Source of the DNA: Mesorhizobium sp. C432A
Lineage (GTDB): Bacteria > Pseudomonadota > Alphaproteobacteria > Rhizobiales > Rhizobiaceae
DNA: 64,000 bases
NCBI RefSeq assembly: GCF_030323145.1
Contig: NZ_CP100470.1
Coordinates: 5,807,001-5,871,000 of the forward strand
Direction: 5' to 3'
Part shown: positions 1 to 18,018 of the stretch, piece by piece
How positions within the stretch are numbered: the stretch's first letter is position 1
Layout: the number at the start of each line of letters is the position of its first letter
The notes under the pieces: generated by a model
Databases searched by the model: none
Seen by the model: the letters and a program-made list of their open reading frames with translations, nothing else
What the model was told of the DNA's origin: nothing
Position numbers and translations under genes: made by a program

Positions 1-740
1 GCTATATCGTCTCGGTGTCGATCGATGACGGGAACCCAGCCTTCGGTGGCCATGGTTCGACGCAACGGCAGATGCCTGGTGCCGGATCCTTTCCAGACCA
101 TGTCGCATCGCCACGGTCACCGACCGCGCCACCCGCTTCGGTCTCCAGCCGGCCGCAGCAAGCCGACGAGATCCTGCGCGCGATTGCCGCCGGCGCCGGC
201 ATTCCGCCAGAGGTGCTTTTGCTGCGCCAACCGCAGGAGGTAGCCGGCGAGATCGGCGCGGTGCTGCGCATCGTCGTCGACGAGCTGGTGTTGCTGTTGA
301 AGGCGCGCGCCGCTGCAAAAGTCCTGGCCAAGACCAGCGATCGAACCATGATCAACGCCGCCGACAACAATCCGCTGAAGTTCGTGCCCGGGACCGACGA
401 AATCCTCGACATCATGTTCGCGCGGCGTAGATCCGGCTATCTTGATGCCCGGCACAGCATCGAAGACGCTTTCCACGACCTCAAGACGCATGAATTCGCA
501 ACCTTCGCCGCCATGCAGGCGGCGCTGTCGCGGTTGCTTGACGATCTGTCGCCCGAGGCGATTGCGAAAAAACTGCCGCCATCCTCCTTTGCCTCGAAGA
601 AAACGCGCGCCTGGGACGCGCTGGTCGCGACCTGGCGGGCCAAGGAGGAAGCGCACGAGAACGGCATGCTGGACATATTCCTCACCTATTTCAGTGAAGC
701 CTATGCCAAGGCCGCCAAACAGAAGACCGGCAAGGGCTAA
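1..740 (+). CDS. tagH: T6SS FHA-domain protein TagH/Fha, C-terminal part (5' end outside window)
   Basis: The frame is open from the window edge, and its first residues (YIVSVSIDDG) look like the last strand of an FHA domain, so the GTG at 15 is probably internal. The conserved C-terminal TagH domain follows: an LLLRQPQEVAGEIG segment, a helix with LLLKARAAAK, the family hallmark DNNPLKF near 370, and an AFHDLKTHEFA helix. In the T6SS of Agrobacterium and Pseudomonas the FHA domain binds phosphothreonine made by PpkA and switches the secretion machine on. The gene lies upstream of tssL on the same strand with a 250-bp gap in which I see no gene. The truncated N-terminus means the phosphothreonine-binding residues cannot be checked here. 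Confidence 0.88.
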   Translation, partial: YIVSVSIDDGNPAFGGHGSTQRQMPGAGSFPDHVASPRSPTAPPASVSSRPQQADEILRAIAAGAGIPPEVLLLRQPQEVAGEIGAVLRIVVDELVLLLKARAAAKVLAKTSDRTMINAADNNPLKFVPGTDEILDIMFARRRSGYLDARHSIEDAFHDLKTHEFATFAAMQAALSRLLDDLSPEAIAKKLPPSSFASKKTRAWDALVATWRAKEEAHENGMLDIFLTYFSEAYAKAAKQKTGKG

Positions 741-2514: not shown

Positions 2515-5500
2515 CCGGCTGGCTGCTACGCATCTTCAGCGCGCTCGCGCTCGCCGGCTTTGCCGCCGCGGTCTGGTACGCCGGCCCGTTGATCCGCTTT
2601 GCCGGCGCCCGGCCGTTGGATCCCATCTGGCTGCGGGCAGCGATCATCGGCATCGTCGTCGGAACGGTGGCGATCATCTACGCAATCCGGTTCCGGCGCA
2701 GGCGCAAGGCGCAGAAGGCGCTGGAGGCCGCCATGGCCAGCGCCGAGGATGACGGCAGCGATGCAAAGATGCTGGAAGCTCGCATGAACGAAGCGGTCGC
2801 GACGCTCAGGCAGTCGAGCGGCAAGCGCAACTTCCTCTACGACGTCCCCTGGTACATCGTCATCGGCCCGCCGGGCGCCGGCAAGACCACCGCGCTGGTC
2901 AATTCCGGCCTGAACTTTCCGCTGGCCGGGTCGGGCCAGGCGCAGCCGGTGGCGGGTGTCGGCGGTACGCGCAATTGCGACTGGTGGTTCACCGACGAGG
3001 CGGTGCTGATCGACACGGCCGGGCGCTACACGACGCAGGATTCCCATGCACGGACCGACAGCAAAAGCTGGCTGGCGTTCCTGTCGCTGCTCAAGCGGCA
3101 CCGGACGCGCCAGCCGATCAATGGCGTCATCCTGGCCATCAGCCTTTCCGATCTGATGGCGGACAGCGAGCAGGCGGCCCGTGTCGCCGAAATCCGCAGC
3201 CGCCTGCAGGAAATCCACGAGGTCCTGAAGGTCCGCTTTCCCGTCTATGTGCTGTTCACCAAGGCCGACCTAGTCTCCGGATTCATGGAATATTTCGGCG
3301 GTTTCGACGAAGCACGCCGGCGCAAGGTGTGGGGCGCGACCTTCCAGACCGCCGAGCGCGGCCTGAACATGGTCGCAGAAGCGCCAGCCGAATTCGACGC
3401 GCTGGTGAAGCGCCTGACCGAAGAGATGAGCGAGCGGCTGCAGTCGGAGACCGATCCGGTCGCGCGCATCGCCATTTTCGGCTTCGCCGCGCAGCTCGGT
3501 GCGCTGAAAGGCCGGATCGTGAATTTCCTCGAGGGCGTTTTCGAGCCGACGCGCAAGCAGCTGAACGCCCCCCTGCGCGGCCTGTATTTTTCTTCCGGCA
3601 CGCAGGAAGGCACGCCGATCGACCAGTTGCTGGGCAGCATAGGCCGCAGTTTCGGCAGGAATGCCCAGGCGCATCTTTCCGGCACCGGCAAAAGCTTCTT
3701 CCTGCACGATCTGTTGAGCCGCGTCATTTTCGCCGAGTCCGGCTGGGTGTCCTATGACAGGGCGGCCGACAGGCGCGTTGCGATCGCCCGCTACGCCGGC
3801 CTGACAGCGATCGCGGCCATAGCGATCGCCGCGCTTGGCGTTCTCGGCCTGAGCTTTACGACCAACAAATCGCTGGTCGCCGCGACCGGCCAGGCGGCAG
3901 GCCAATACCGCGCGACAGCCGCGCCGCTGCTGGCCAGCACGACGGTGTTGGATGCCGACCTCGAAACCGTCATCGGCGCGCTCGATGCGCTGCGCGGCCT
4001 GCCGGCCGGCTACGATACGAGAGACCAGCCCACCCCGGCCACGGCGACGTTCGGCCTCAGCCAGCGTGAGCGTATCCTTTCGGCCTCCGAGACCGCCTAT
4101 CGGCAGGGGCTGGAGCGGATGTTCCGCTCGCGCCTGCTGTTCCAGCTCGAACGCACGATCGAGGCCAGGATGGCCGATCCGATGGCGCTGTACGAGCCGT
4201 TGAAGATTTACCTGATGCTGGGCGGCAAGGCGCCGAAAGTGGATGACGAGCTGGTCGTCACCTGGCTGAAGCGGGACTGGGAACAGAACCGCTATCCCGG
4301 CGCCCACAATCGCGACGGCCGGGCGCAACTGGAGAAGCATTTGCGCGCCATGCTGGCGCTCGACGATGACCAGGATCCCTCGTTCGAACTCAACCGCGCG
4401 CTGGTCGAATCCGCCCAGCGCTCGCTCGGCCGCATGAGCCTTGCCGATCGCGCCACCGCGCTCATCCAGTCGGCCACCTATGCGGCGGCGCTGGACGATT
4501 TTTCGGTGTCATCGCAAGCCGGCGCGGAGGCGCCGATGCTGTTCGAGCGCAATGACGGAAACGATCTCGCCGGCCTTCGCGTCCCCGGTCTCTACACCCA
4601 TGCCGGCTTCGACTTCTATCTGGCGCAACTTGCCAGGAGCGCGCAGGCGCTGGTCGACGATCAATGGGTGATCGGCTCGAGCGGCGAGCAAGGCGGTTTC
4701 GACCAGGAATTGCTCAAGCTCGGCCCGGAGCTGCTCGATCGCTATGGCAAGGGCTTTGCGGCGGCGTGGAACGAGGTGCTCGACAGGTTGAAGTTCAAGG
4801 CAATGGCCGCCGACAAACCGCAATATCTGGCGCTGTCCGCAGCGGGATCACCGAGTTCGCCGCTGATGCAGCTGTTCGAGGCGATCGCGCGCGAAACAGC
4901 TTTGACGCAAGAGCGCAATCCGGCTGCGCCGTCTCAAGACAGCGGCCAGGAAATCGCGGCACGCGCCAAGGGCCTCGCCCGCATCGGCATCGAGCTTGCA
5001 GCGCGCAAATCGCAGAGCAGGGCCGGGACCGCCTTTGTCAGTACGCAGAACCAGGATCCCGGCGCCAACATCGAAGCCCAGTTCCGGTCTTTCCAGGCTT
5101 TGGTGGCCGGGGCGCCGGGGCAGCGGCCGCTCGACGCCCTGACCCAGAATTTCCGCGAAATCTATCAGAGCGTGCGGCTGGCCGCCGATGTCCCCGCCCA
5201 GACGGACCAGGCCAACGCCAATCTGCAGCTGCAGATATCGACTCTACGCGCCAACGCCTCGCGGCTGCCGAAGGCGCTGGCCAGGATGGTGAGCGCGGCG
5301 GCGGACGATTTCGAGGGCACCGTCGCCGAAACATCGACCACGCATCTCAACGAGATGCTGGAGGAGACCGTCGGCCGTCCGTGCGAAGAGATGATTGCCG
5401 GGCGCTTTCCATTCGCCCCCGCCGGTACCGACGATGTCGCCATGGCGGATTTTGCCAGGTTGTTTTCTCCGGGCGGGGTTCTCGACCGGTTTTTCGCGCA

Positions 5501-6032
5501 GAACCTGGCGTCGCTGGTCGACATGAGCGGCCAGGACTGGGACTGGAAACAGGACACCAGGTTCGGCCGCAATCTGGCGAAATCGACGCTGAAGAACTTT
5601 CAGCTCGCGGCACAAATCCGCGCGGCTTTCTTTCCGCTCGGCGGGCCGGTGCCGTCGATCAACATCACCTTCACGCCGCTGTCGCTGCATGGCGATGCCG
5701 ACATGGCGCTGCTCAATATCGACGGCCAGGTGCTGCAGGCCACCCAAGCCGGCAACACGCCGGGCCTGATTCCGTGGCCGGGCAAGACCGGTTCGGCCAG
5801 TCTCAGCCTGACGCCGGAGCTGCCCGGCCGCGAGTCCGCAATCAAGTTCGACGGTCCCTGGGCGTTGAAACGATTGCTGGACAAGGGGCAGGTCACCGCC
5901 AATGGCGACAGTCTCGAAGCGCATTTCCTCATCGGCGGGCGCGATGTCGCCTACACGATCAAGACCGGGGAGGACGGTAATCCGTTCACGCTGCCGGCGC
6001 TCTCCGCGTTCAGCTGTCCGAAGGCTTTCTGA
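2511..6032 (+). CDS. tssM: T6SS membrane-core protein TssM (IcmF family)
   Basis: A 1173-residue protein, normal for TssM. It has two N-terminal transmembrane helices (about 5-25 and 43-59), a cytoplasmic NTPase-like domain with an intact Walker A motif GPPGAGKTT at 119-127, a third membrane helix near 425-450, and a long periplasmic part ending in the IcmF C-terminal beta domain. TssM spans the inner membrane and periplasm and links TssL to the outer-membrane lipoprotein TssJ. The GTG start at 2511 overlaps the tssL stop and is preceded by GGGAGGAGA. The stop TGA at 6030-6032 shares its A with the ATG of the next small ORF. The intact Walker motif matters because some TssM lineages have lost it. 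Confidence 0.95.
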   Translation: MTGWLLRIFSALALAGFAAAVWYAGPLIRFAGARPLDPIWLRAAIIGIVVGTVAIIYAIRFRRRRKAQKALEAAMASAEDDGSDAKMLEARMNEAVATLRQSSGKRNFLYDVPWYIVIGPPGAGKTTALVNSGLNFPLAGSGQAQPVAGVGGTRNCDWWFTDEAVLIDTAGRYTTQDSHARTDSKSWLAFLSLLKRHRTRQPINGVILAISLSDLMADSEQAARVAEIRSRLQEIHEVLKVRFPVYVLFTKADLVSGFMEYFGGFDEARRRKVWGATFQTAERGLNMVAEAPAEFDALVKRLTEEMSERLQSETDPVARIAIFGFAAQLGALKGRIVNFLEGVFEPTRKQLNAPLRGLYFSSGTQEGTPIDQLLGSIGRSFGRNAQAHLSGTGKSFFLHDLLSRVIFAESGWVSYDRAADRRVAIARYAGLTAIAAIAIAALGVLGLSFTTNKSLVAATGQAAGQYRATAAPLLASTTVLDADLETVIGALDALRGLPAGYDTRDQPTPATATFGLSQRERILSASETAYRQGLERMFRSRLLFQLERTIEARMADPMALYEPLKIYLMLGGKAPKVDDELVVTWLKRDWEQNRYPGAHNRDGRAQLEKHLRAMLALDDDQDPSFELNRALVESAQRSLGRMSLADRATALIQSATYAAALDDFSVSSQAGAEAPMLFERNDGNDLAGLRVPGLYTHAGFDFYLAQLARSAQALVDDQWVIGSSGEQGGFDQELLKLGPELLDRYGKGFAAAWNEVLDRLKFKAMAADKPQYLALSAAGSPSSPLMQLFEAIARETALTQERNPAAPSQDSGQEIAARAKGLARIGIELAARKSQSRAGTAFVSTQNQDPGANIEAQFRSFQALVAGAPGQRPLDALTQNFREIYQSVRLAADVPAQTDQANANLQLQISTLRANASRLPKALARMVSAAADDFEGTVAETSTTHLNEMLEETVGRPCEEMIAGRFPFAPAGTDDVAMADFARLFSPGGVLDRFFAQNLASLVDMSGQDWDWKQDTRFGRNLAKSTLKNFQLAAQIRAAFFPLGGPVPSINITFTPLSLHGDADMALLNIDGQVLQATQAGNTPGLIPWPGKTGSASLSLTPELPGRESAIKFDGPWALKRLLDKGQVTANGDSLEAHFLIGGRDVAYTIKTGEDGNPFTLPALSAFSCPKAF

Positions 6033-6193
6033 TGGGGAATTGCATGGCAGGACCAGCGATTGCAGGACGCAGAGACAGCGGCGGCACCACACCGTCCGTC
6101 ATCAGCGGCTTAGATTTCGATACTCTAATGAATGGGGCTGTGGCAGACTGGCCAGGCACGTCAGCCAAGGCGTTGCGGAGCGTAGGCAAGTGA
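6032..6193 (+). CDS. small coupled ORF between tssM and pppA (53 aa), possible TagF remnant
   Basis: A 53-codon frame fills the space between tssM and pppA. Its ATG overlaps the tssM stop by 1 nt (TGATG) with GAAGG 8 nt upstream, and its stop overlaps the GTG of pppA by 4 nt, so it is coupled on both sides. The peptide starts MGNCMAGPAIAG and has a FDTLMNGAVADWP segment. In Agrobacterium this slot holds TagF, fused to PppA. TagF/ImpM proteins end in a segment resembling GLP..FA.LL.G.W, and I see a loose similarity to GLDFDTLMNG here, so it may be a leftover TagF C-terminus. That identity is only a guess; that it is translated is well supported by the overlaps. Confidence 0.5.
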   Translation: MGNCMAGPAIAGRRDSGGTTPSVISGLDFDTLMNGAVADWPGTSAKALRSVGK

Positions 6194-6948
6194 ACGATGC
6201 CGCCTTTGAGAGCTACGGCGTGAGCCACAAGGGCTGCGTGCGCGACCACAATGAGGACAGCTTTCTGGTCGAGCCGCGGATCGGCCTCTGGGTGGTGGCC
6301 GACGGCATGGGCGGGCACGAGGCCGGAGAAGTCGCTTCGGCAAGCATTGTCGAGCATCTGGCGACGATCGGCATCGCCAGTTCGGCGCCGGATCTGCGCG
6401 CCCGCTTTGAGGATCGGCTGAACCGGGCGCATGCCGAGATCCGCCGGATTTCGCGCTCACGCGGCGTGACCATCGGCTCCACCGTTGCCGCACTGCTGGC
6501 CATGGACGGCAGGTTCGCCTGCCTGTGGTCGGGCGACAGCCGCGTCTATCTCGTGCGCAACGCCGCGATCTCGCAGATTTCGCGCGACCACACCGAGGTC
6601 CAGGAACTGCTCGACAGCGGCGCGATCAGCGCGGCCGAAGCGGAGAACTGGCCGCGCCGCAACGTCATCACCCGCGCCATCGGCGTCAACGACGAAATCG
6701 CCATCGACTTCCAGCAGGGAGAGACCCTTGCCGGCGACATTTTCATCCTCAGCACGGACGGCCTGACGGCGCATGTCAGTGACGCGGAGATTGCGGCTGC
6801 AGTGCTCTCGGCAGCGCCGCAGGCTGCCTGCGAAAAGCTGCTTTCCATGGTGCTTGAGCGCGGCGGCACGGACAACGTCACCATCGTTCTGGTCAAGATC
6901 AGAGACAAAGGCAATGGCCTGTCCCGAGCAGAAGGCCGTGACCGATGA
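6190..6948 (+). CDS. pppA: T6SS-associated PP2C-type protein phosphatase PppA
   Basis: I use the GTG at 6190 (GGAG 9 nt upstream), giving 252 residues. Longer in-frame starts would run through low-quality Arg-rich sequence that overlaps tssM in another frame. PP2C metal-binding motifs are intact: RDHNEDSF (18-25), VADGMGGHE (36-44), SGDSRVYL in the middle and DNVTIVLV at the end. PP2C enzymes are Mg/Mn-dependent Ser/Thr phosphatases. In T6SS loci PppA reverses PpkA phosphorylation and resets the apparatus. Its stop overlaps the ppkA start (ATGA), so antagonistic phosphatase and kinase are made from one message. Unlike Agrobacterium, there is no full TagF domain fused at the N-terminus. Confidence 0.93.
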
Positions 6949-9398
6949 GCTCCGACGACAAGACCCGGCTATTGCCCAACATGGCGGATACCAGCGTCGG
7001 CACGCAGCTCAGCGGCATCTACGAGCTCGACGAACGCATCGCGTCGGGCGGCATGGGCGAAGTCTATCGCGGCCACAACATCCAGACCGGCGATCATGTC
7101 GCGATCAAGATCGTGCTGCCGGAATTCGCCCGCGATCAGACGATCCTGTCGCTGTTTCGCAAGGAAGCCTCGATCCTCAACCATCTGTCGCATGACGCGG
7201 TCGTGCGCTACCACGTCTTCACCATAGATCCCGGCATCGGGCGGCCCTATCTGGCGATGGAATTCGTCGACGGCCAGTCGCTGTACGACGTCATGCGCGG
7301 CGGGGCGATGGCGACTCCGGATGTGCGCAAACTGTGCCACCGGCTGGCCTCGGGCCTGAGCGCCGTGCACCAGGCCGGCGCCATCCACCGCGATCTGTCG
7401 CCCGACAACATCATCCTGCCGGGCGGCCGGGTCGAGCGGGCAAAGATCATCGATTTCGGCATTGCGCGATCGGCCGCGGTCGGTGGCGAGACGCTGATCG
7501 GCGGCAAGTTTGCCGGAAAATACAATTACGTCTCCCCCGAGCAGCTCGGGCTCTATGGCGGCGAGGTCAGCGAACAGTCCGACATCTACAGCCTGGGGCT
7601 GGTGCTGGCGGCGGCGCTGCGCGGCAAGCCGATCGATATGGGCGGCTCGCAATACGAGATCGTCGAAAAACGGCGGACCGTCCCTGATCTCTCCGGCATC
7701 GATGCCGATTTCAGGGACATTGTCGAAGCGATGCTGCAGCCTGACCCGGATGATCGACCGGCCAGCATGGCCGAAATCGCCCGGTTGACGCGCGACGACA
7801 GCGACGCAACCTTGCCGCCGGCATCGCTCGCGCCCCGGCCCGGTCTGCCGCGAACCGGGCAGACCGCAGGGCCTGTCTCGAAGGTCGGGGACTCGCCGGC
7901 CCAAGGCTTCGGTTCGGCCCCGCCAAGCGGCACGGCGGAGCCGTCTTTCGTGCCGCACGTGCGCCCGGCGCACCTGTCGCAGCCGAAACCGGCTGCTGAA
8001 ACTCCCAGACGAGCAAGCACACCGCCGAAGCGTGCTACTACAGGCAGAAATCTGACGATCGCGGTGCTGTCGGCGGTGGCCGTGGTATCGCTTGGAGGGC
8101 TCTATGCATCGGGTATCGTGGGATTCGGAGACCGGCCTCGCGTCACCGACACCGGCAAGCCGCTCCAACCCGAACTGACAAAGCCGATCGTCGCTGACAA
8201 GCCCGTTCCGGACACTGCGCCGGTCGAGAAGACGGTGCCAAAGCTGCAACCAGCGGAGACTGCGGCTGAAGATCAGGCCAAAGCGCCGGTCGAGCCGCAG
8301 CCGACGCCACCAGTCGCGTCGAGCGCTACGGCCCCGCTGCCGGCCGCACCAATCGACAAGACCGTCGCGCTGCAACCGCCATCCGGCCCGTCACAGTCCG
8401 ATGCCGCGAAGAACCCCGAGCCTGTCAGTCCGCCGGTAGAGCCCAAGGCGACAGCGCCGGCCACGCAAACACCTGAACCAACGGCCGAGGCACCCACGCC
8501 CACAGCACCGGCGCCGCAACCCACCGCTCAACCGCCCGAGCCCAAGGCGCAGGCGCCTGAACCGACCGCGCAGGCGCCCAAGCCGGACACGCAGGCGCCC
8601 AAGCCGGACACGCTGGCCCCCAAGCCGGACACGCAGGCGCCTGAAACGACCGCAGAGCCCAACCCAAGCCGGCCCAACATCGCCAGCGGCGAGCAGGCCG
8701 ACAAGTCCGCAGAGCCCGACATTGCCATGAACGTGCCCAAGCCGGAGGTGCCGCCACCGGCCGATGCGGCCGCGGAGCGGGTCACCTGGGTACGCGCCTT
8801 CAATGGTGGTGATTGTTTTTTTGCGACGGTGACGTCGGCCGCCGACAAGGGCGTCGCGATCGAGGGCTTCGGCACGTCGGTGCCACCCTTCGAACAGTTG
8901 CTTGGGGAATTCCAGGCGAAGTTCCATGTCGAGCCGGATATCAGCGTCCGCCTTATCCAGCCCCCGCAATGCGGGATCACCGGCTTCCTGCGTTTCATGG
9001 GCGCGAGCACGGCCGACAGGCCGCAGCTTGTCCTCGACCAGACATCGGTGCCGGACGGCTCGCCGATCGACGGCACGCTGATGACGCATGGCGGGCTGGT
9101 GTCGAGCGTGTTCCTGATCGACCACAGGGGCATCGCCTTCAACCTCGACGATCATGTTGTCGTACAAGCCGACAAGGCGACCTTCTCGATCCCGATCGGG
9201 CTCGGCGCCGCCGACAAGGCGGCAGGCAAGGCGTTGCCGCAGATCATCATGGTGATCACCGGGCCGCAGGACATTAAGGCGGCGGACTTCACAACGCCGA
9301 CGCCGGCCTCGGTGCTGTTGCCCAGGATACTCGACGAGATCGGCGCCAGGAGTTCGGCATTTTCGGCGACCGCCAAATATTTCCGCCTCGGCGGCTAG
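6945..9398 (+). CDS. ppkA: T6SS-associated Ser/Thr protein kinase PpkA
   Basis: An 817-residue transmembrane kinase. The N-terminal Hanks-type domain (about 25-290) has the Gly-rich loop IASGGMGEVYRG (32-43), catalytic Lys55 in AIKI, HRDLSPDN (148-155) and DFG (170-172), so it should be active. A Pro-rich linker leads to one membrane helix near 365-385. A periplasmic Pro/Thr/Lys region with nine heptapeptide repeats follows, then a globular C-terminal domain of about 200 residues (from WVRAFNGGDCFFATV) that I do not recognise. In Agrobacterium and Pseudomonas, PpkA phosphorylates TssL or Fha in response to a periplasmic cue, and PppA reverses this. The gene overlaps pppA by 4 nt and is followed 11 nt later by a DUF1036 gene. 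Confidence 0.92.
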   Translation: MSSDDKTRLLPNMADTSVGTQLSGIYELDERIASGGMGEVYRGHNIQTGDHVAIKIVLPEFARDQTILSLFRKEASILNHLSHDAVVRYHVFTIDPGIGRPYLAMEFVDGQSLYDVMRGGAMATPDVRKLCHRLASGLSAVHQAGAIHRDLSPDNIILPGGRVERAKIIDFGIARSAAVGGETLIGGKFAGKYNYVSPEQLGLYGGEVSEQSDIYSLGLVLAAALRGKPIDMGGSQYEIVEKRRTVPDLSGIDADFRDIVEAMLQPDPDDRPASMAEIARLTRDDSDATLPPASLAPRPGLPRTGQTAGPVSKVGDSPAQGFGSAPPSGTAEPSFVPHVRPAHLSQPKPAAETPRRASTPPKRATTGRNLTIAVLSAVAVVSLGGLYASGIVGFGDRPRVTDTGKPLQPELTKPIVADKPVPDTAPVEKTVPKLQPAETAAEDQAKAPVEPQPTPPVASSATAPLPAAPIDKTVALQPPSGPSQSDAAKNPEPVSPPVEPKATAPATQTPEPTAEAPTPTAPAPQPTAQPPEPKAQAPEPTAQAPKPDTQAPKPDTLAPKPDTQAPETTAEPNPSRPNIASGEQADKSAEPDIAMNVPKPEVPPPADAAAERVTWVRAFNGGDCFFATVTSAADKGVAIEGFGTSVPPFEQLLGEFQAKFHVEPDISVRLIQPPQCGITGFLRFMGASTADRPQLVLDQTSVPDGSPIDGTLMTHGGLVSSVFLIDHRGIAFNLDDHVVVQADKATFSIPIGLGAADKAAGKALPQIIMVITGPQDIKAADFTTPTPASVLLPRILDEIGARSSAFSATAKYFRLGG
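8466..8654 (+). repeat. nine tandem 21-bp units encoding Pro-rich heptapeptides in PpkA
   Basis: Nine consecutive in-frame 21-nt units encode heptapeptides of the form xxPxPxx. The units at 8571 and 8592 are identical at the DNA level (QAPKPDT) and the one at 8613 is nearly so, which shows recent unit duplication. Older units upstream are diverged. The repeats form the periplasmic stalk between the membrane helix and the C-terminal sensor-like domain. Confidence 0.85.
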
Positions 9399-9409
9399 CA
9401 CCGACGCCG

Positions 9410-9871
9410 ATGCAACGTCGTCGCCGAGATCCCGTCCTGCTTGCCCGGAACGTGCGGGTGAAGCTCGCCGCGAGCGCGGTCGCGACGCTGTTGCTGGCGC
9501 TTCTTTCCACCGGGCAAGCGCGCGCCGAATTCACCGTCTGCAACCAGACGCTCGATGTCGTCAATCTTGCCGTCGGCCAAAAGGTCGACGATGCCGACCA
9601 GACCGATGGCTGGTGGACCATCGGCGCCAATCAATGCGTCAACGTCATCCGCGAGGAGCTGACCAACCGCTACATCTACATCTACGCGACGGATGTGTTC
9701 GGCCACGCCATTCTGGCAGGCTCCACCGACATGTGCATCGAGCGGCGGCGGTTCTCGATCCGCGGCATCGATGAATGCTGGCAGCGCGGCCATATCGCGG
9801 CGAAGTTTCTCGAAGTCGACACCCAGGAACAGGTGCGCTGGACCTTCTTCCTGACCGGAAGCGCGCCGTGA
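9410..9871 (+). CDS. exported DUF1036 protein
   Basis: A 153-residue protein with a basic N-terminus and a hydrophobic signal segment ending ARA near residue 39. The mature part matches the DUF1036 pattern: CNQT near its start, GWW with a following NQC, then a Tyr-rich strand YIYIYATD and several Cys. DUF1036 proteins are small secreted or periplasmic proteins of unknown function found in many alphaproteobacteria. The gene sits directly between ppkA and the peptidoglycan hydrolase gene, and its stop overlaps the GTG of that gene by 4 nt, so it belongs to the T6SS operon. The start could also be at the Val/Met region nearer the signal peptide. Confidence 0.75.
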   Translation: MQRRRRDPVLLARNVRVKLAASAVATLLLALLSTGQARAEFTVCNQTLDVVNLAVGQKVDDADQTDGWWTIGANQCVNVIREELTNRYIYIYATDVFGHAILAGSTDMCIERRRFSIRGIDECWQRGHIAAKFLEVDTQEQVRWTFFLTGSAP

Positions 9872-12264
9872 CGCACAGCATCGACACCAGCTTCAAAGCA
9901 AAGAAGCAGGCGCGCGCCGCGCTGCGCAGGCGCAGGATCTGGCTCGGGCTGGCGGCTGGCCTGGCGACAATCGTCCTCGCCGCGATTGCCACCGGCTTCT
10001 ATCTTACCGCCGACTACTGGTCGTTCGGCGACGAGGACGAGGAACTGCATGCCGTCGAAGGCTCGGACGACGTGCCGGCCGACGCATCGGTCTACGTGCC
10101 GGCCATCATCGACCTTGCCGGCGACCCGATGTGGATCACACTGGCGCCGGAGGCCGGCGCCGCGAAGAGCAGCGGGATGCCGCGCCCGGCGGAGCTCGAC
10201 CAGGCCGGTATCTCCCCTCAGATCATGGTTCTCTCCGACGTGATGCTGAGCGCCAGCGAAAAATTCATGACGACGATCCCCTCGACGCAAGAGGATTTCG
10301 CTTTCTTTCAGGCGCAGCGGAAGACCGCGGTCGCGCCACCCGCCGAACCCAGCGATCCGCAGAATGACCTGCAGAACGATCTTCAACCATCGCCCGGCGC
10401 GGACGGGGCTCCGGCGGCCTCCGGCCCAGCTCCTGACCCGCAAGCCGCTCCGGGTGCATCGGCGGCGGCCGATGACCCCGAGGCCGGCTGGGGCGAGACC
10501 ATCGATGAGGGCGAAGCAGCACTCCCCGCCTTTCAGAAGACACCGGTCGAAAACAACACCAGCGTTGCCACCGTCAGCTCGGAATACCAGCGCTTCGAGG
10601 CGACCCAGGACATTTTCGTGAAAATCCTCAACGACCGCAGCCTGGACAGCGTGGCGCTCGATGCGCATTTTTCCGCCGACGACGCAAAGCTTGCCGGCGA
10701 GGCGCTGAAGGCGCTGTTCGACAAGGACGGCCTGCAGCCTGGTTATGTCGTGGCGATGCGCGGCTTCAGGCCGACGCGCGAGACCACGACGATGTCGCTG
10801 ATGCAGGTCTCGATCTATGCCAGGAACGTCTTTGTCGGCACGCTGACACGCAACGCGGCCGGTGCCTTCGTGTCGGGCGTCGACCCGTGGGTGCGCGAGG
10901 ACCTGTTCAATTATTCGGGCGCCGAGACCGAAGGCACGCAGAAACGGCAATACCGCCTGCTCGACGCGATCTATTCGACGGCGGCCCGCAACAATGTGCC
11001 GAGCGGCATCATCGGCGAAGCCATCATGTATCTGTCGCGGGGACAGGATCTGGATGCTTTCGCCAGCGAGGACCAGCGTCTTGTGCTGATCTATTCGCAG
11101 ACGCCGCGCGGCAAGAACGAGACCGACGGACGGGTGCTCTATGTCGGTATCCAAGGCACGCAAAAGAGCTTGGATTGTTTCGTTTTCCAGCAGAGCGACG
11201 GCCAGTTTTCCTGCGTCTCGGGCGATGACCAGGTGCGCTCGCTGACGGTGGCCAACGGCATGGTGACGCCGGTCAACGGTGTCATGACGTCGACCTTCGG
11301 GCCGCGCAAGCATCCGATCCTGGGCGTTGTTCGCATCCACAAGGGCGTCGACTGGGCAGCACCCGTGGGGACCCCGATCGCAGCAGCCTTCGACGGCGAG
11401 ATCATCTTCCAGGGCGACGGCGGCGGCTACGGCAATGTGGTCAAGATCGCCCATGGCGGCGGCCGCGAGACGCGCTACGCGCATATGTCGAAATTCGCCA
11501 TTGCCAGCGGTGTCGGCACCAAGGTGAAGGCCGGCGACATTATCGGCTATATCGGCACCACCGGCCTGTCGACCGGGCCACATTTGCATTTCGAACTCTA
11601 TCAGAGCGGTCAGGCGATCGATCCGCTCGGAACAGTGACCGCTGCAATCGCCGTCACTTCCAGCGATCCCGCCGTCGAAACGCTGACCGACCGTATCGTC
11701 CACGTCGAATCGGGCGGTAGCGCGCGGGCCAAGAACCCGCTGTCTTCGGCGACAGGCGCCGGCCAGTTCATATCCAAGACCTGGATCCGGATGATGAACA
11801 CCTATCGTCCCGAACTGGCGCGCTCGCTGTCGACCGCAGACCTGCTCGCTTTGCGCTACGACGCCACCATCTCGCGTGAGATGGTGCGCAATCTGGCGCG
11901 CGAGGGCGAAGCCTATCTCAAGGCGCGTGGCCACCAGATCACCGCCGGCCGGCTCTATCTCTGCCATTTCCTCGGTATGGAAGGCGCCCATCAGGTGCTG
12001 GCGTCGCCGGGATCGGCGCAGTTGAGCGCCGTGCTCGGCTCGTCCGTTATCCAGGCCAACCCGTTTCTTGCCGGCAAGACCGCCAGCTACGTCGTCGACT
12101 GGGCGGAACGGAAGATGGGCCGCAAATTGCCGACGCCCGCCACCACCGATGCGGGCCAGCAGACGACGACGGAAGTCCGCCAGACATCGCCGGAGTTCGA
12201 AAAATACAAGCAGGCGATAACGGCACTGGTCGGCTCGATCCAAAATACTCTTGAGCCGGGCTAG
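9868..12264 (+). CDS. membrane-anchored M23 endopeptidase fused to a lytic-transglycosylase-like domain
   Basis: I choose the GTG at 9868 (overlap GTGA with the previous stop, GGAAG upstream), giving 798 residues. A basic N-terminus precedes one membrane helix (about 30-50), then a long acidic/Pro-rich spacer and an uncharacterised domain. The LytM/M23 zinc-peptidase domain has HKGVD (His491, Asp495), YAHMSKF and GPHLHFE (572-576), so all ligands are present. After it lies a second domain starting RIVHVESGGSARAKNP (Glu614), with GAGQFISKTW, which resembles SLT-type transglycosylases with their catalytic Glu. The protein could therefore cut both peptide cross-links and glycan strands, as would be needed to let a T6SS complex through the wall. 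The fusion and its place in the T6SS operon support that inference. Confidence 0.82.
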   Translation: MTHSIDTSFKAKKQARAALRRRRIWLGLAAGLATIVLAAIATGFYLTADYWSFGDEDEELHAVEGSDDVPADASVYVPAIIDLAGDPMWITLAPEAGAAKSSGMPRPAELDQAGISPQIMVLSDVMLSASEKFMTTIPSTQEDFAFFQAQRKTAVAPPAEPSDPQNDLQNDLQPSPGADGAPAASGPAPDPQAAPGASAAADDPEAGWGETIDEGEAALPAFQKTPVENNTSVATVSSEYQRFEATQDIFVKILNDRSLDSVALDAHFSADDAKLAGEALKALFDKDGLQPGYVVAMRGFRPTRETTTMSLMQVSIYARNVFVGTLTRNAAGAFVSGVDPWVREDLFNYSGAETEGTQKRQYRLLDAIYSTAARNNVPSGIIGEAIMYLSRGQDLDAFASEDQRLVLIYSQTPRGKNETDGRVLYVGIQGTQKSLDCFVFQQSDGQFSCVSGDDQVRSLTVANGMVTPVNGVMTSTFGPRKHPILGVVRIHKGVDWAAPVGTPIAAAFDGEIIFQGDGGGYGNVVKIAHGGGRETRYAHMSKFAIASGVGTKVKAGDIIGYIGTTGLSTGPHLHFELYQSGQAIDPLGTVTAAIAVTSSDPAVETLTDRIVHVESGGSARAKNPLSSATGAGQFISKTWIRMMNTYRPELARSLSTADLLALRYDATISREMVRNLAREGEAYLKARGHQITAGRLYLCHFLGMEGAHQVLASPGSAQLSAVLGSSVIQANPFLAGKTASYVVDWAERKMGRKLPTPATTDAGQQTTTEVRQTSPEFEKYKQAITALVGSIQNTLEPG

Positions 12265-12487: not shown

Positions 12488-14143
12488 ATGAAAGCGTTTG
12501 CCGTCCTTTTGAGCGGATTTTTTCTGTTAATGCTGACCGCGCTTGGCACCGTCCAGGCGGCGGCGCCGGATGCCGGTGGCGTCAAACGCGTCGCGCTGGT
12601 CATCGGCAACAGCAAATACGTCCATGCCGTCGAATTGCCCAATCCGGCCAATGACGCGCATCTCATCGCATCGACGCTGCGCAATGCCGGCTTCGAGGTG
12701 ATCGAGGGCGTCGACCAGGACAATGCCGGCATGCACAGCCTGATCAGCAAATTCACCGAGCAGTCCTACGATGCCGACCTCGCCGTCATCTTCTATGCCG
12801 GCCACGGCATGCAAGTCGACGGCAAGAACTTTTTGATCCCGGTCGACGCCGAACTGACGTCACCTGCCTATCTCAAGACCCGCACCGTCCAGATCGACGA
12901 CTTCATGGCCGCACTGCCGCCCGACCCGGCGGTCGGCGTCATCATCCTTGATGCCTGCCGCGACAATCCGCTGGCACGGACACTGGCGGCCTCGATGCCG
13001 AAGACCCGCTCCACCGCGCTGGGCACCGGCCTGGCGCCGATCGACCCTAAATCAGAGGGCGTCGGCACCGGCGGCATCCTGATTGCCTATGCCACCGACC
13101 CGGGCGCCATCGCCTTTGACGGCAACGGCGTCGACAGCCCCTACTCGACCGCGCTCGCCAGGCACCTGACCGAACCCGGCGTCGAGATCCAGAGCGCGCT
13201 GACGCGGGTGCGCGGCGAAGTGGCCGAGACCACGCAAGGCCGCCAGCGGCCATGGCACAACGCATCGCTGGGCCGCGAGGTCTTCCTTGGCAAACCGGCC
13301 GCCGAAGCCGCACCGATGGTAAAACCGGCCGCCGATGACGCGAACGCCGTGGCAGCGCCCGCTCCTGCTCTCGTCACCAGCGAACCGCCTTCGTGGGAAG
13401 TCGAGCAGCGGCTTTGGGACGAGGCCTCGAAGCGCAACACCGCGCCATTCTACGAAGCCTATCTCGAACAGTTCCCGAATGGCCGCTTCGCCACGGTGGC
13501 GCAGCTCAACATCGATGCGCTGAACGATCCGAAAGCCCAGGAACGGCAGGTGGCAGCGCTCGATGCCGACGAAGCGAACTCGGGTTCTGCCGTGCGCACC
13601 TCGGTCGGCATTTCGGACGACATGAAGAAGGTGCTGGGCACCGAGGCGACGGAGAACGCGATCGGTCTCGATCGCCAGGGCCGCATCGACCTGCAATTGC
13701 GCGTCGAGGCGCTGGGCAACGAGCTTGGCCGCGTCGACGGCAATATTGGCGCCAAGACCCGGCAAGCGATCGGCGACTGGCAAGAGGGGAACGGGCTGCC
13801 TCCGACCACCTTCCTGACGCGCGAGCAACTGGCGTTCCTGGTTATCCAGACGGACCCGATGATGGAGGCCGTTCGTGCCAAGCACGAGGCCGACCAGGCC
13901 GGAGTGGACAAGCAGAAGAAACAGGTGGTGCAGAAGGCCCGCACGCTGAAGCCGGTGGCGGAAAAGCCACGCAAGAAGCAGTACGCCCAGAAGCCGCGCC
14001 GACAACAGCAGTTCGTGCAGAAAAGGCGCAACCGAGAGGTCGTGCGCGAGGATGAACCGCCACCGCGGGACAACAATGATTTCCTGACCAAGGCGCTGAT
14101 CTTCGGCACCGGCGTAGCAGTCGGCGGCGTGCTCAAGAACTGA
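12488..14143 (+). CDS. exported caspase-like (peptidase C14) protein with peptidoglycan-binding-like C-terminus
   Basis: The ATG at 12488 follows GGAAGG by 8 nt and begins a clear signal peptide (to VQA, residue 24), giving 551 residues. The caspase fold is at about 32-270, with catalytic His106 in FYAGHG and Cys157 in LDACRDN. The middle has a Trp-containing segment resembling an SEL1/TPR-like linker (LWDEASKRNTAPFYEAYL). Residues around 395-455 resemble a peptidoglycan-binding helical module (GNIGAKTRQAIGDWQ). The tail is very rich in Lys/Arg/Gln and ends with a short hydrophobic stretch. Bacterial exported caspase-like proteins are common in rhizobia, but few have known targets. It lies just after the T6SS operon with a 223-bp gap, so it may have its own promoter. 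Confidence 0.83.
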   Translation: MKAFAVLLSGFFLLMLTALGTVQAAAPDAGGVKRVALVIGNSKYVHAVELPNPANDAHLIASTLRNAGFEVIEGVDQDNAGMHSLISKFTEQSYDADLAVIFYAGHGMQVDGKNFLIPVDAELTSPAYLKTRTVQIDDFMAALPPDPAVGVIILDACRDNPLARTLAASMPKTRSTALGTGLAPIDPKSEGVGTGGILIAYATDPGAIAFDGNGVDSPYSTALARHLTEPGVEIQSALTRVRGEVAETTQGRQRPWHNASLGREVFLGKPAAEAAPMVKPAADDANAVAAPAPALVTSEPPSWEVEQRLWDEASKRNTAPFYEAYLEQFPNGRFATVAQLNIDALNDPKAQERQVAALDADEANSGSAVRTSVGISDDMKKVLGTEATENAIGLDRQGRIDLQLRVEALGNELGRVDGNIGAKTRQAIGDWQEGNGLPPTTFLTREQLAFLVIQTDPMMEAVRAKHEADQAGVDKQKKQVVQKARTLKPVAEKPRKKQYAQKPRRQQQFVQKRRNREVVREDEPPPRDNNDFLTKALIFGTGVAVGGVLKN

Positions 14144-14164
14144 TCGATCACATCGAACGACAAA

Positions 14165-14195
14165 AACGCCGCGTGTCCGTTGGACGCGCGGCGTT
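14165..14195 (-). terminator. intrinsic terminator of the ompA-like gene
   Basis: A 14-bp stem (AACGCCGCG plus GTCC, one G-T wobble) with a 3-nt loop lies between two convergent genes. On the minus strand it is followed directly by TTTTTG, the classic form for the leftward OmpA-like gene. On the plus strand it lacks a U-tract but could still help end the caspase transcript. Confidence 0.75.
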
Positions 14196-14222
14196 GATGG
14201 CCGGAAGACGCAGCCGGCGAAG

Positions 14223-14759
14223 CTACTGCGCCTTAATCCGCATCTCGACCCGGCGATTGACAGGATCGTAGGGGTCGGGGTTGCGTGGATTGGCCTCGCC
14301 GAGACCGACCGCCTTGATGCGGTTGGATTCGATGCCGTTGGATTCGAGGAAGGCCGTCACCGACTGCGCCCTGCGCTGCGACAGCCCCTCATTGTAGGTC
14401 GCCGAGCCGGATGCGTCGGTATAGCCTTCGACGACGAAGGACAGCTTGCTCAGCCGATCGTCCTTCAGCGCCTTGGCGAATTCGTCGAGTTCGCTGCGCG
14501 CCTTGGCGTCGAGCTCGGACGAATCCAGGCTGAAATTGATCAGCATATCGAGGCCGGTCTTCTCCGGAGGCTTTTCTTTCTGGCTGGTCTTGCTCTTGCA
14601 CTCGTCCTCGGTGCCGACACAAATCCCGCGTGCCGCGCCGTGATCGATAGCGCCGGCAAAGAACTTCACAATGTCTTCCGATTTCTGAAGTGGGTCGGCA
14701 TAGACGTGCGTCGAGAAAAGCACGGTCGCCAATGCCAAGACTGAAATGTGCCGCTGCAT
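14223..14759 (-). CDS. exported OmpA-domain protein
   Basis: A 178-residue protein from the ATG at 14759, preceded by GGGAG 9 nt upstream; the first 20 residues are a signal peptide (ending VYA). After a short spacer with two Cys, the OmpA-like peptidoglycan-binding domain covers about 65-178: NFSLDSSELD, VEGYTDASG, NEGLSQRRA and PVNRRVEMRI. It has no beta barrel, so it is a soluble periplasmic wall-binding protein rather than a porin. It is divergent from the DUF6931-like gene across a 229-bp promoter region and convergent with the first caspase gene. Confidence 0.85.
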   Translation of the reverse strand: MQRHISVLALATVLFSTHVYADPLQKSEDIVKFFAGAIDHGAARGICVGTEDECKSKTSQKEKPPEKTGLDMLINFSLDSSELDAKARSELDEFAKALKDDRLSKLSFVVEGYTDASGSATYNEGLSQRRAQSVTAFLESNGIESNRIKAVGLGEANPRNPDPYDPVNRRVEMRIKAQ

Positions 14760-14988
14760 AACGGTTACTCCCGTTTCGAGCATCCGATTTTCACTCAGGC
14801 CCGATCCATGGATCCGGGCCAACTCTTCCTGTTCGACAATGATCTGTCGAGATCACGGTCGGCTGTGGAATATACCAAACCGTGAGGCGTTTGTCTGTGA
14901 ACAACGTCATGGACATGTGGTGGTCGACAGACTTGACCCGCGCCTCGCAGGCGGGTTGAGTGAGGGCTGGGGGAGGATAACAGCAGCG

Positions 14989-15552
14989 ATGGTCAACGGG
15001 CTTCGATTCCAGACCGCACGCGATCTCTTCGCCGCGAACACGGCTGTCGCCCGGGACATGACGGCCGTTCCGACCGACCAGCCCTCGCTCGAGTTCTGCC
15101 GCCGGCTGATGGCCGGGCGCATCCCCGAGGAAGCGATTACCTTTTGCGCCTATCTCCTGCCTGACCGGGCCGCAATCTGGTGGGGGCATGAGTGCCTTGG
15201 GCATCTGACCGAGCTGCTCGAAGAGCAGGATCTCGCAACGCTGGCCCTGATCCAGGACTGGGTCGGCGACCCCAACAATGCAAGCCGCCGGGAGGCTGTC
15301 GCCGGGGCGGCGATGACGCAGCAGCACACGCCTGCCGGCTGGATCGCGCTAGCGGCGCAACGGCACATCAATGGCCTGACGCCGCAGACCAACGGGTCGA
15401 GGCTGCGGCCGCTGCCGGCTGCGCATGCCGTCAATGCCGGCATACTGGCCGGACTGGCGCGGGTTGCGGTGGCGGACCGTTTCTCCGTGCTCACCGCCTT
15501 TGTCGAGATGGGCATCCAGCTGGCCGAAACCGAGGCGCTGCGCCGAGCCTGA
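14989..15552 (+). CDS. cytosolic DUF6931-like protein
   Basis: From the ATG at 14989 (GGGAGG 12 nt upstream, rather long spacing) it encodes 187 residues with no signal peptide or membrane helix. It is mostly helical, with WWGHECLGHL, AVAGAAMTQQHTPAGWIALAA and a C-terminal AVNAGILAGLARVAV segment. The overall pattern matches, from memory, the family catalogued as DUF6931; its function is unknown. Longer in-frame starts reach back into the divergent ompA-like gene and are unlikely. It sits among exported caspase and OmpA-domain genes, and is the only cytosolic product of this cassette. Confidence 0.65.
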   Translation: MVNGLRFQTARDLFAANTAVARDMTAVPTDQPSLEFCRRLMAGRIPEEAITFCAYLLPDRAAIWWGHECLGHLTELLEEQDLATLALIQDWVGDPNNASRREAVAGAAMTQQHTPAGWIALAAQRHINGLTPQTNGSRLRPLPAAHAVNAGILAGLARVAVADRFSVLTAFVEMGIQLAETEALRRA

Positions 15553-15610
15553 TTGCTCTGGATCGTGATGAGATTTCATTGAAATCTGATCCAACCCATT
15601 GTTGGCGGTC

Positions 15611-16855
15611 TCATTTGCAGCCGTTTTGCGCCCATTTGCCGAGTGCCACCTTGAAGCGCGTGCCCAGCGGGTGTTGCAGGCGCAACACGGAGACATCATT
15701 GGTGACGTAGGTCTTGGCCTGGTCGCACAGCCGCTCCTCGGTCCATTGATGACAGTTGCTGCACTGGTTGTCCCAGACGGACTTTTCCAGGCCCTCGACC
15801 GGACTGAAGTGCGGCTTGCCCTGGATGAGTTGGGCGATGCTCTTGCCGTCGATCGCCGGGTCGCCGAAATTGACCGGAACGTCGAAAAGGACTGGCGCGT
15901 CCGAGCCCAGCTTCGGAATTTCCTCACGCAGCTGTTCCAGCGCCTGCTCGCCGGCGTCCGTACCCGGCGGATTGGCGGCCGCGCCGGTGCGCGCCTGCGT
16001 ATCGCCTTCGGGCGCAGCCGCGCCGGAATCGCCGACGATCAGCGGCGCCTTGAGATCGACCTTGTGAAGCACGACATCGGTGGTCAGCGAAACGTTGATC
16101 CAGGGCCGCTGGCGTCCGGCTGTGGCCTTGAACACATCCGACGTAACCCGGTTCATCGCTTCGGTGATCGAGACGTTGACCTCGCCGATATGGGCAAGCA
16201 GCGCCGCCGAAAATGGCGAGTGCTCGCCCGGTCCGTCATAGGCGAGCTGGTTGGGACTGGCAGCGAAGGCGACCAGCGTGCCGGCGCCGCCATTCTCGAT
16301 CGGTATTTCGGCAAGGCCGCTGCTTGCCGTGCTGTCGCCGCCAGTCTCCTTGGCAAGCACATCGGCGAGCGGGTTGTCGCGGCAGGCGTCGAGGAACACC
16401 AGCCTGATGCTGGTCTCGCGCGACATCTGCCGCAGGATGAAGTCCACCTGCACGGCTTCGAAGTCGAGCGAGGTCTCGTCCTCCAGCGCCGCATCGACAG
16501 GCAGCAGGTAATTCCTGCCCGAGACCTGCAGGCCATGACCGGCATAGAAGAACAGCGCGATATCGGCGCCACGCACCTGCCGCGCGAATTGCGCGATCTT
16601 TTCCTGCGTCTGCGCCTTGGTGAGATCGAGGCCGGAGACGATTTCGAAGCCCAGCCCCTTCAGGCGATCGGACATTGCCTGCGCATCGTTCACCGGATTG
16701 GGCAGCACCGGCGCGTTCCGGTAATGGGAATTGCCGAGCACCAGGGCGATGCGGCGTTCGGCACTGGCCGCGGTCATGGTAATGGTCATGGTCAACGCAA
16801 GCGCCAGCACGGCGAGGCCGACGCCGCGCATGAAGTTGCCGCAACTTGCAATCAT
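15611..16855 (-). CDS. exported caspase-like protein with C-terminal CxxCH motif
   Basis: The ATG at 16855 gives 414 residues (16831 is an alternative); a signal peptide ends near TAASA (32). The caspase domain (about 34-260) carries His107 in FYAGHG and Cys158 in LDACRDN, and is clearly related to the caspase gene at 12488. The linker is Ala/Gly-rich. The last ~85 residues form a different module with CSNCH at 365-369, another Cys at 377 and a final NGC at 413. CxxCH in an exported protein is the attachment site of c-type heme, though Cys could instead form disulfides or bind metal. The gene follows the YceI-OmpA gene on the minus strand after 56 nt, so the two are probably one transcript. 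Confidence 0.82.
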   Translation of the reverse strand: MIASCGNFMRGVGLAVLALALTMTITMTAASAERRIALVLGNSHYRNAPVLPNPVNDAQAMSDRLKGLGFEIVSGLDLTKAQTQEKIAQFARQVRGADIALFFYAGHGLQVSGRNYLLPVDAALEDETSLDFEAVQVDFILRQMSRETSIRLVFLDACRDNPLADVLAKETGGDSTASSGLAEIPIENGGAGTLVAFAASPNQLAYDGPGEHSPFSAALLAHIGEVNVSITEAMNRVTSDVFKATAGRQRPWINVSLTTDVVLHKVDLKAPLIVGDSGAAAPEGDTQARTGAAANPPGTDAGEQALEQLREEIPKLGSDAPVLFDVPVNFGDPAIDGKSIAQLIQGKPHFSPVEGLEKSVWDNQCSNCHQWTEERLCDQAKTYVTNDVSVLRLQHPLGTRFKVALGKWAQNGCK

Positions 16856-16911
16856 GTCCAAACGCACCGGATTCCTTTTCGGTTGACGGGCCTTCTCAGT
16901 TAAGGACCGGC

Positions 16912-18018
16912 TCAGTTGGAGAGCGGCGTGGCGGAGAACTCGATCCGCCGGTTCAGCGCCTTGTTCTTCGGCGTATCGTTCGGCGCCACCGGCTTTTCCT
17001 CGCCATAGCCGGAAGCCGTGATCTGCGCCGATGGAATGCCCGCAGCGATGATCGCGTCGGCGACCGCCTTGGCGCGTCGTTCCGACAGGTTCTTGTTGGC
17101 CGTCGGCGAGCCGTCGGAATCGGTATGGCCCGAAACCTCGACCTTCAGTTTCGGACATTTGCCGACGACGCCGACCACCTCGGCCAGCAGCGGGCGGCTC
17201 TTTTCATCGAGCCGAGCGCTGGCTGGGCGAAAATAGACGGCGCCGGTGCGCGACAGCACCTCGAACCTGTTCAGGCATTCATCGTCGCTGAAGGACGTCT
17301 TGCCTGCATCTGTGGCGACCGGCCCGGCATCGGCTGGGGCTGCGGCCGCGACGGCAGGCGCCGCCGCCGGCTTGGCCCCATCAGCGGTGAAGACGAAGTC
17401 GAACGACACCGAAGCCGTCGGGACGATGCTGCTGACATTGGCCGCCTGCTGGAGTTTTTCGATGTTGGGCAACAGGCCGAAATCCTCGACATGCACGGCG
17501 ACCGGCGCCTCCGAGGCGATCGACGCCATGCTGTCGGTGATCATGGTGACCACGACATTGGCCTCAAGGTCCTTGTCGACGCCGTGCAGGCTCAGGCGAA
17601 ACGGGATATGCGCGCTCATGCGCCGTTTGGTGGCGAGATCGGCAAAAGCGGCGGGATCGACTTTCGCCGTCACTTCCGCCGTCGGGAATTTGAAGGTTTC
17701 GAAGAACAGGAAGCGCATGCGGACATTGCGAAGGTCGATACCGGTGTCGACCGAGTTGAGGTCGAACGTGACCTTGGCGGCGCCATCCGATGTCAGCGTG
17801 CCCGAGAGGTTCCTGATCTTGTTGGTTTCGACAATGGTGTTCTTCTTCACCGATTGATAGGTGAGTGTCGAATTCGCCGGATCGAGCGTCCAGTGCGGCT
17901 GCGCGTTGGCCACCTGCGGCGCAAGCAGCAACAGACCGAACACCACGACCACCAGAGCCGGCGGACGCCAGCGCTGCGACGGCTTTCCATGCCTTACTAA
18001 TCCGACGACCCCGAACAT
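16912..18018 (-). CDS. exported YceI-OmpA fusion protein
   Basis: From the ATG at 18018 it encodes 368 residues (a GTG at 18039 is also possible). A signal segment (VVVVFGLLLLAPQVANA) is followed by a YceI-like lipocalin domain (about 38-210: WTLDPANSTLTY, FKFPTAEVTAKV, LHGVDKDLEA), an Ala/Pro linker, and an OmpA-like domain (about 240-368: VYFRPASARLD, VSGHTDSDG, NLSERRAKAV, NKALNRRIEF). YceI folds bind isoprenoid or other lipids in a cavity; the OmpA part binds peptidoglycan. The combination suggests a wall-anchored lipid carrier or sensor, which is inference. It is the first gene of a leftward pair with the CxxCH caspase. Confidence 0.85.
   Translation of the reverse strand: MFGVVGLVRHGKPSQRWRPPALVVVVFGLLLLAPQVANAQPHWTLDPANSTLTYQSVKKNTIVETNKIRNLSGTLTSDGAAKVTFDLNSVDTGIDLRNVRMRFLFFETFKFPTAEVTAKVDPAAFADLATKRRMSAHIPFRLSLHGVDKDLEANVVVTMITDSMASIASEAPVAVHVEDFGLLPNIEKLQQAANVSSIVPTASVSFDFVFTADGAKPAAAPAVAAAAPADAGPVATDAGKTSFSDDECLNRFEVLSRTGAVYFRPASARLDEKSRPLLAEVVGVVGKCPKLKVEVSGHTDSDGSPTANKNLSERRAKAVADAIIAAGIPSAQITASGYGEEKPVAPNDTPKNKALNRRIEFSATPLSN

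Follow-up and report, generated by a model that had tools for sequence, protein, structure and literature searches.

A stretch of 64,000 nucleotides from Mesorhizobium sp. C432A (hereafter the window; bases 5807001-5871000, the genome being a single contig of 6.02 Mb) was analysed with a focus on five uninterrupted genes at 12488-18018, casp1, OmpA, DUF6931, casp2 and YceI-OmpA, which adjoin a type VI secretion system (T6SS). From the left edge of the window, the gene order is TagH, TssL-OmpA, TssM, PppA, PpkA, DUF1036 and an M23 peptidase, then the five genes and a ThuA-domain gene (Table 1). OmpA (-) and DUF6931 (+) diverge from a 229-base gap, and the order suggests the units M23-casp1 (+), divergent OmpA (-)/DUF6931 (+), and YceI-casp2 (-). 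The five genes are a genuine, modular envelope set that follows T6SS. What is new and most valuable here is the recognition of DUF6931 as a T6SS family and of a CxxCH-containing caspase with a wall-anchored partner.

An earlier note on this DNA had placed two exported caspases with intact His and Cys after tssL-tssM-pppA-ppkA and a wall-cutting enzyme. This layout was confirmed, with the addition of the DUF1036 gene that the note left unnamed, as were its three wall-binding proteins among the five (PG_binding_1 in casp1, OmpA domains in two others). Signal peptides of casp1, OmpA, casp2 and YceI-OmpA were judged by eye. Both caspases matched PF00656, and the His and Cys motifs were intact in the window copies and in 41/41 full-length orthologues extracted for each, using only near full-length matches of >68% identity. 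The peptidoglycan-binding motif NxxLSxxRAxxV was found in 67/67 orthologues of the OmpA protein, and the corresponding motif of YceI-OmpA was intact in 40/41 orthologues.

Table 1. Features of the window. Positions are those of the window; evidence is the domain match (E value) or motif.
Feature	Position	Strand	Evidence
casp1, exported orthocaspase with C-terminal peptidoglycan-binding domain	12488..14143	+	PF00656 8e-43, PF01471 (PG_binding_1) 1e-7
OmpA-domain periplasmic protein, divergent from DUF6931; likely start 14759	14223..14759	-	PF00691 3e-22
DUF6931 protein, predicted cytosolic, all-helical; likely start 14989, 187 aa	14989..15552	+	PF22011 2.5e-32
casp2, exported orthocaspase with C-terminal CxxCH domain; likely start 16855	15611..16855	-	PF00656 2e-43
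casp2 C-terminal domain, residues 313-414, ~100 residues	15614..15919	-	C, C, H, C, H, C unchanged across 120/120 relatives listed
CxxCHxW motif codons, putative haem c site	15743..15763	-	motif
YceI-OmpA fusion, upstream partner of casp2	16912..18018	-	PF04264 2e-14, PF00691 1e-23
TagH/Fha C-terminal domain protein, start of second T6SS envelope arm	15..740	+	PF20232 3.6e-46
TssL (second copy) with OmpA domain	991..2514	+	PF09850 1.2e-48, OmpA 1.3e-14
TssM (second copy)	2511..6032	+	PF14331 3e-84, plus other IcmF domains
PppA phosphatase; true start probably within the open reading frame, past the TssM stop	5902..6948	+	PP2C 1e-9
PpkA kinase	6945..9398	+	Pkinase 8e-41
DUF1036 small protein	9410..9871	+	PF06282 1e-32
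M23 wall endopeptidase, N-terminal membrane segment; start uncertain (open reading frame from 9775)	9865..12264	+	PF01551 2.5e-33

Linkage to T6SS was surveyed in the genus (119 genomes), the family (101 genomes) and the order (347 genomes). A set of 68 loci, L029-L096, was retrieved via their DUF6931, which conditions what they contain; no such conditioning applies to the counts for genus, family and order, and the genus survey is therefore the unconditioned test. In the genus, TssM was present in 103 genomes and DUF6931 in 100, all of them TssM-positive. Orthologues of casp1 (at least 70% identity) were found in 66 genomes, 63 of them beside DUF6931, and casp2 in 62, all 62 beside DUF6931. 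Every carrier had TssM (66/66 and 62/62), neither caspase occurred in the 16 TssM-less genomes, and the Fisher p values with TssM were 4e-17 for DUF6931, 6e-7 for casp1 and 2e-6 for casp2, kinship being ignored. The three casp1 exceptions lay on another contig (G107), in a genome where DUF6931 was not matched (G167) and 318 kb from DUF6931 (G115). In the family, DUF6931 was found in 9 genomes, all within the 22 that were TssM-positive. In the order, it scored above cut-off in 42 genomes (2 more below) and TssM was present in 57, with an overlap of 41 (Fisher p = 6e-39); the two were on one contig in 35 cases, all 35 within 26.6 kb, and on other contigs in 6/41, while 16 TssM-positive genomes were without DUF6931. 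The single DUF6931 genome without TssM (G719) gave a TssG-like match and, as judged by eye, holds a ClpV-like gene within the same 20 kb. DUF6931 is found with T6SS core genes and beside them, as an accessory of the system would be; casp1 and casp2-YceI occur with the core in the genus and, for casp2, also in 6/6 family genomes outside it. The gene-neighbourhood survey proposed in the earlier note thus found these families in the company of T6SS far above chance, contrary to the chance-level association that the note had named as a refutation.

The casp2 cases outside the genus came from an unconditioned search of 292 family genomes, in which full-length casp2 was found in 6, each with YceI-OmpA. 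All 6 have TssM, compared with 20/99 family genomes outside the genus, a link that is suggestive rather than strong because the six genomes represent four genera and the three unlinked ones among them two. G678, which belongs to another family, was left out of this count because it was found via its T6SS locus, where the gene run is TssL-TssM-PpkA-DUF1036-M23-DUF6931-casp2-YceI.

Several observations weigh against a tight functional tie between the caspases and T6SS. The genus genomes are related, and the p values therefore overstate independence. Among TssM-positive genus genomes, casp1 is absent from 37/103 and casp2 from 41/103, so neither is needed for the T6SS machine; some of these absences may be misses, since only 11 (casp1, genus), 15 (casp2, genus) or 6 (casp2, 292 outside-genus genomes) candidates were scored per genome. 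In three outside-genus genomes, casp2-YceI had no T6SS gene within the 20 kb fetched, and TssM without full-length casp2 was seen in G386, which shares its genus with two of the three. The casp1 matches were partial or contained stops in 10/66 genomes, and a ~60%-identical casp1 paralogue was present in 12/119 genus genomes, away from T6SS in the five loci examined (L145-L149).

The partial casp1 copies were those of G170 (two stops), G149, G128, G204, G212, G181, G195, G173, G115 and G167; in seven of the ten, the match stops short of the wall-binding part.

The earlier note had treated the five genes as one cassette and asked whether they recur together across Rhizobiales; a single five-gene cassette across the order was not supported. 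Among the loci examined, all five occurred together only in Mesorhizobium, where their order was retained in most of L029-L096 (65 of the 68 titled Mesorhizobium), and no good casp1 match was found in the outside-genus loci examined. The 103 TssM-positive genomes divided into 42 with both caspases, 24 with casp1 only, 20 with casp2 only and 17 with neither (p = 0.40); casp1 and the casp2-YceI/OmpA pair come and go independently. YceI-OmpA, by comparison, accompanied casp2 in 40/40 casp2-bearing loci of L029-L096 and in 7/7 loci outside the genus. DUF1036 travels with M23, both being matched in 66/68 of L029-L096 and also in other genera; the two stood behind TssM and PppA, usually together with PpkA, in L139-L141, L162, L166, L167, L170 and L172, and this arrangement was not found in L168, L174, L175 and L177. 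Outside the genus, DUF6931 sat between VgrG and TagH in 12/18 loci, with an OmpA match nearby in 3, and two more OmpA cases were seen. Because casp1 and casp2 are independent, casp2-YceI is constant, and the DUF6931 and DUF1036/M23 arrangements vary outside the genus, the set is built in layers, with caspase modules as optional additions to the T6SS core, the envelope arm and DUF6931/OmpA.

DUF6931 and OmpA are T6SS accessories common to other genera. The frequent position of DUF6931 beside TagH suggests a place in the PpkA-PppA-Fha pathway, and its structure was modelled at a predicted local distance difference test (pLDDT) score of 88.8. A full-text literature search, which did not cover subscription papers and preprints, returned no paper mentioning 'DUF6931'; this unnamed domain family now gains a readily testable T6SS role. 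A third caspase, which bears Sel1/TPR repeats and what looks like a signal peptide, was seen downstream of the T6SS arm in 43/57 loci with enough flank (for example L035:11197-13794), and the orthologue in the window genome lies near 5114051, ~0.7 Mb away.

On sequence, both caspases show the p20 fold and His-Cys dyad of orthocaspases (C14), and casp2 does so also by fold match, its nearest solved fold being MALT1 (Foldseek E = 7e-17). Orthocaspases and pseudo-orthocaspases share with casp1 and casp2 the p20 fold and His-Cys dyad and the lack of a recognised p10 domain. Pseudo-orthocaspases without the dyad are described as common in Rhizobiales (561/582 alphaproteobacterial ones; PMC6426788), and caspases that bind the wall, as well as the presence of OmpA in operons with caspases, were noted in 2012 (PMC3501461). 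The difference here is a T6SS-linked branch with the CxxCH domain that lost the dyad and retained the domain. An EACC1-type identity for casp1 and casp2 was considered and rejected: the related caspase conflict systems (NF047832; PMC7159879, seen in part) also combine a caspase core with variable C-terminal fusions and include many dead members, but NF047832 scored 38.9 and 56.4 bits, far under its 140-bit cut-off, and the partners differ. In the text of PMC7159879, 'Mesorhizobium' was not found and 'type VI secretion' occurred in a reference only.

The earlier note overlooked the C-terminal CxxCH domain of casp2. A search with this part gave 147 proteins at E <= 0.001, of which 120 were listed, and reached close relatives only; those listed with organism names were Mesorhizobium, bar one Rhizobiaceae. 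CxxCHxW was present in 120/120 listed relatives, with 14 different xx pairs. Two selections of relatives were used, A1 with 48 chosen from the 120 (13/48 without the catalytic Cys) and A2 with 38. Exported proteins carry haem c attached at CxxCH, and the haem attachment machinery acts on such exported motifs. The casp2 C terminus has this feature of c-type cytochromes throughout the 120 listed relatives, export being judged by eye; it is possibly a covalent-haem site, and the second His, also invariant, might serve as the other haem ligand. One relative, P0113 (514 residues), carries the CxxCH domain without a caspase match; a transmembrane segment and an extended low-complexity region were recognised in it by eye.

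The haem site is a prediction and not a finding, because the structure model is poor at the CxxCH domain. Block pLDDT was 38-75 there and no cytochrome-like fold is shown, which weighs against the haem reading, as does the best Pfam hint, a sub-threshold zinc-finger fragment (E = 0.004); a sequence search of the Protein Data Bank gave nothing for the domain at E <= 1, and Pfam gave no family above cut-off. The strongest rival concerns this domain only, is compatible with the main reading and the two other rivals given below, and was judged to fall somewhat short of an even chance: CxxCH...C...H...C would be a structural metal site or disulphide knot. The four invariant Cys and two invariant His, the zinc-finger fragment and the poor quality of a model made without ligand all suit such a knot. 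Against it stand the predicted export of the protein, the exact CxxCH with its 14 xx pairs, the action of the haem attachment machinery on exported CxxCH, and a weak Cytochrom_C match (E = 0.49) at the CxxCH site of P0113, a protein without a caspase domain.

The earlier note had suggested a proteolytic module; a purely proteolytic one is not supported by casp2 outside the genus. In the four T6SS-linked copies found there (G030, G246, G356, G678), the catalytic Cys is replaced by S or A, and in G678 the catalytic His is also replaced, by Tyr; in the three unlinked copies (G272, G333, G080), the dyad is intact. A quick 46-row tree was built from every third extracted casp2, 23 chosen relatives, the 7 outside loci, the window copy and one outgroup; 12/43 inner branches were open and some rows were near duplicates. 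The dyad was lost in 17/45 rows, for which one change suffices by parsimony, and CxxCH was retained in 45/45. Mean identity in the dead branch was 0.675 for p20 and 0.793 for the CxxCH domain, and in the active group the opposite, 0.780 and 0.731, in samples that were small, uneven and contained near duplicates. A T6SS-linked sister clade thus lacks the catalytic Cys and has the CxxCH domain, and proteolysis is therefore not the whole function. Active and dead caspases with a constant CxxCH domain and partner offer a natural contrast by which the important part of the protein can be picked out.

The reading given about an even chance is that the set is a T6SS envelope add-on, regulatory or protective, in which casp2-YceI is a redox- or haem-linked unit. 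The locus would be an outer accessory arm of the T6SS, with TssL2-TssM2-PppA-PpkA-DUF1036-M23 as a second envelope module. DUF6931 in the cytosol and OmpA as a periplasmic wall anchor would make up a first layer of old T6SS accessory proteins; casp1, encoded next to the M23 hydrolase, may be an optional wall-docking caspase in a second; and casp2 with YceI-OmpA may be an optional two-gene unit in a third. YceI is a lipid/quinone-type carrier fold, which YceI-OmpA would tether to the wall, and casp2 would combine a caspase core with a C-terminal domain possibly holding covalent haem. The exported proteins would stand where the T6SS crosses the wall, sensing or limiting envelope disturbance from assembly and firing. 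There, casp1 might trim wall enzymes or T6SS parts, and casp2-YceI might act as a redox- or haem-linked switch or scaffold, its protease used in Mesorhizobium and dispensable in the sister clade. Gene content, T6SS linkage, modularity, motif conservation and the loss of the catalytic Cys are established here, and haem binding, site of action, substrates and purpose are inferred. A bolder form, which is rather doubtful, has casp2 founding a family of periplasmic haem-c caspases: wall-bound YceI-OmpA and covalent haem would be a redox switch gating the caspase at the T6SS passage, and one lineage would have lost the protease and kept the haem switch. If so, a bacterial caspase fused with a cytochrome-like domain would be tied to a secretion machine. 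Exported bacterial caspases, whose functions are mostly unknown, are now tied to a defined machine.

It is unlikely, though less so than the last model below, that the right flank of the T6SS island is merely a landing site in a caspase-rich genus and that the caspases have no T6SS function. The window genome has eight C14 genes, the Sel1-repeat caspase so often downstream of T6SS elsewhere is far from it in this genome, casp1 and casp2 were gained or lost independently, and partial casp1 copies exist, all as expected of passengers. Gene order and catalytic motifs are nevertheless retained across the genus, T6SS-linked casp2 copies occur in other genera and another family, and even the genomes with unlinked casp2-YceI are TssM-positive in 3/3 cases (two genera), which, set beside the 20/99 given above, is suggestive only. 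Least probable of all is that peptidoglycan damage from an incoming attack triggers wall-bound caspases that protect or sacrifice the cell: predicted export, wall-binding domains and the links of prokaryotic caspases to peptidoglycan binding and OmpA (PMC3501461, in part) agree with it, but neither a cytosolic killing partner nor an immunity-like gene is evident among the five, both caspases score under the NCBIfam EACC1 cut-off, the PADLOC caspase match is weak, and the pseudo-caspase clade persists, though dead caspases are common in conflict systems too (PMC7159879, in part).

Parts of the T6SS add-on arrangement have counterparts in known systems. T6SS envelope accessories include TagL, TagP and TagN, and peptidoglycan hydrolases such as TagX. 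These, like the present locus, bring OmpA-type peptidoglycan binding and a wall-cutting enzyme into a T6SS locus (TagL/TagP: PMC5813230, in part), whereas here there are a separate OmpA and YceI-OmpA plus caspases, with M23 and DUF1036 behind a second TssM. The kinase, PP2C phosphatase and Fha-type proteins recall the threonine-phosphorylation pathway PpkA-PppA-Fha of the Agrobacterium T6SS (PMC3953482, in part), except that here they belong to a doubled envelope arm. The YceI family (PF04264) shares the exported YceI domain, which here is joined to an OmpA domain and has a CxxCH caspase as its partner. The word 'cytochrome' was absent from the main texts of PMC6426788 and PMC3501461, and in the passages returned 'secretion' stood without T6SS context. 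A literature search, again not covering subscription papers and preprints, found no paper joining 'caspase domain', 'CXXCH' and 'bacteri', and two reviews in which Mesorhizobium, type VI secretion and caspase occur together; if the CxxCH domain binds haem, the architecture is one absent from the caspase papers searched.

The 40 kb flanking the window on its left contains TssA, TssB, TssC, Hcp, TssE, TssF, TssG, Fha, TssJ and TssK, then another TssL-OmpA, a ClpV-like AAA protein, VgrG, a PAAR-like protein and a DUF2169 protein. An IcmF search located two TssM genes in the genome, 15 kb apart, the first as a match at 5795043. From these left-flank genes and the two IcmF matches, the T6SS core is complete and its TssL-TssM pair doubled, with the two pairs ~15 kb apart in L009 (bases 5787001-5807000) and at 991-6032 of the window. 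Almost every TssM-positive genome in the genus sample likewise gave at least two TssM matches, as did several other genera. The C-terminal part of the M23 protein appeared lysozyme-like by eye, and the NCBIfam match there was weak. A PAAR-like gene, DUF2169, two small genes and, scoring below cut-off, a ketoacyl-synthase-like gene are grouped near VgrG (L009:11527-15472), probably as a T6SS cargo module.

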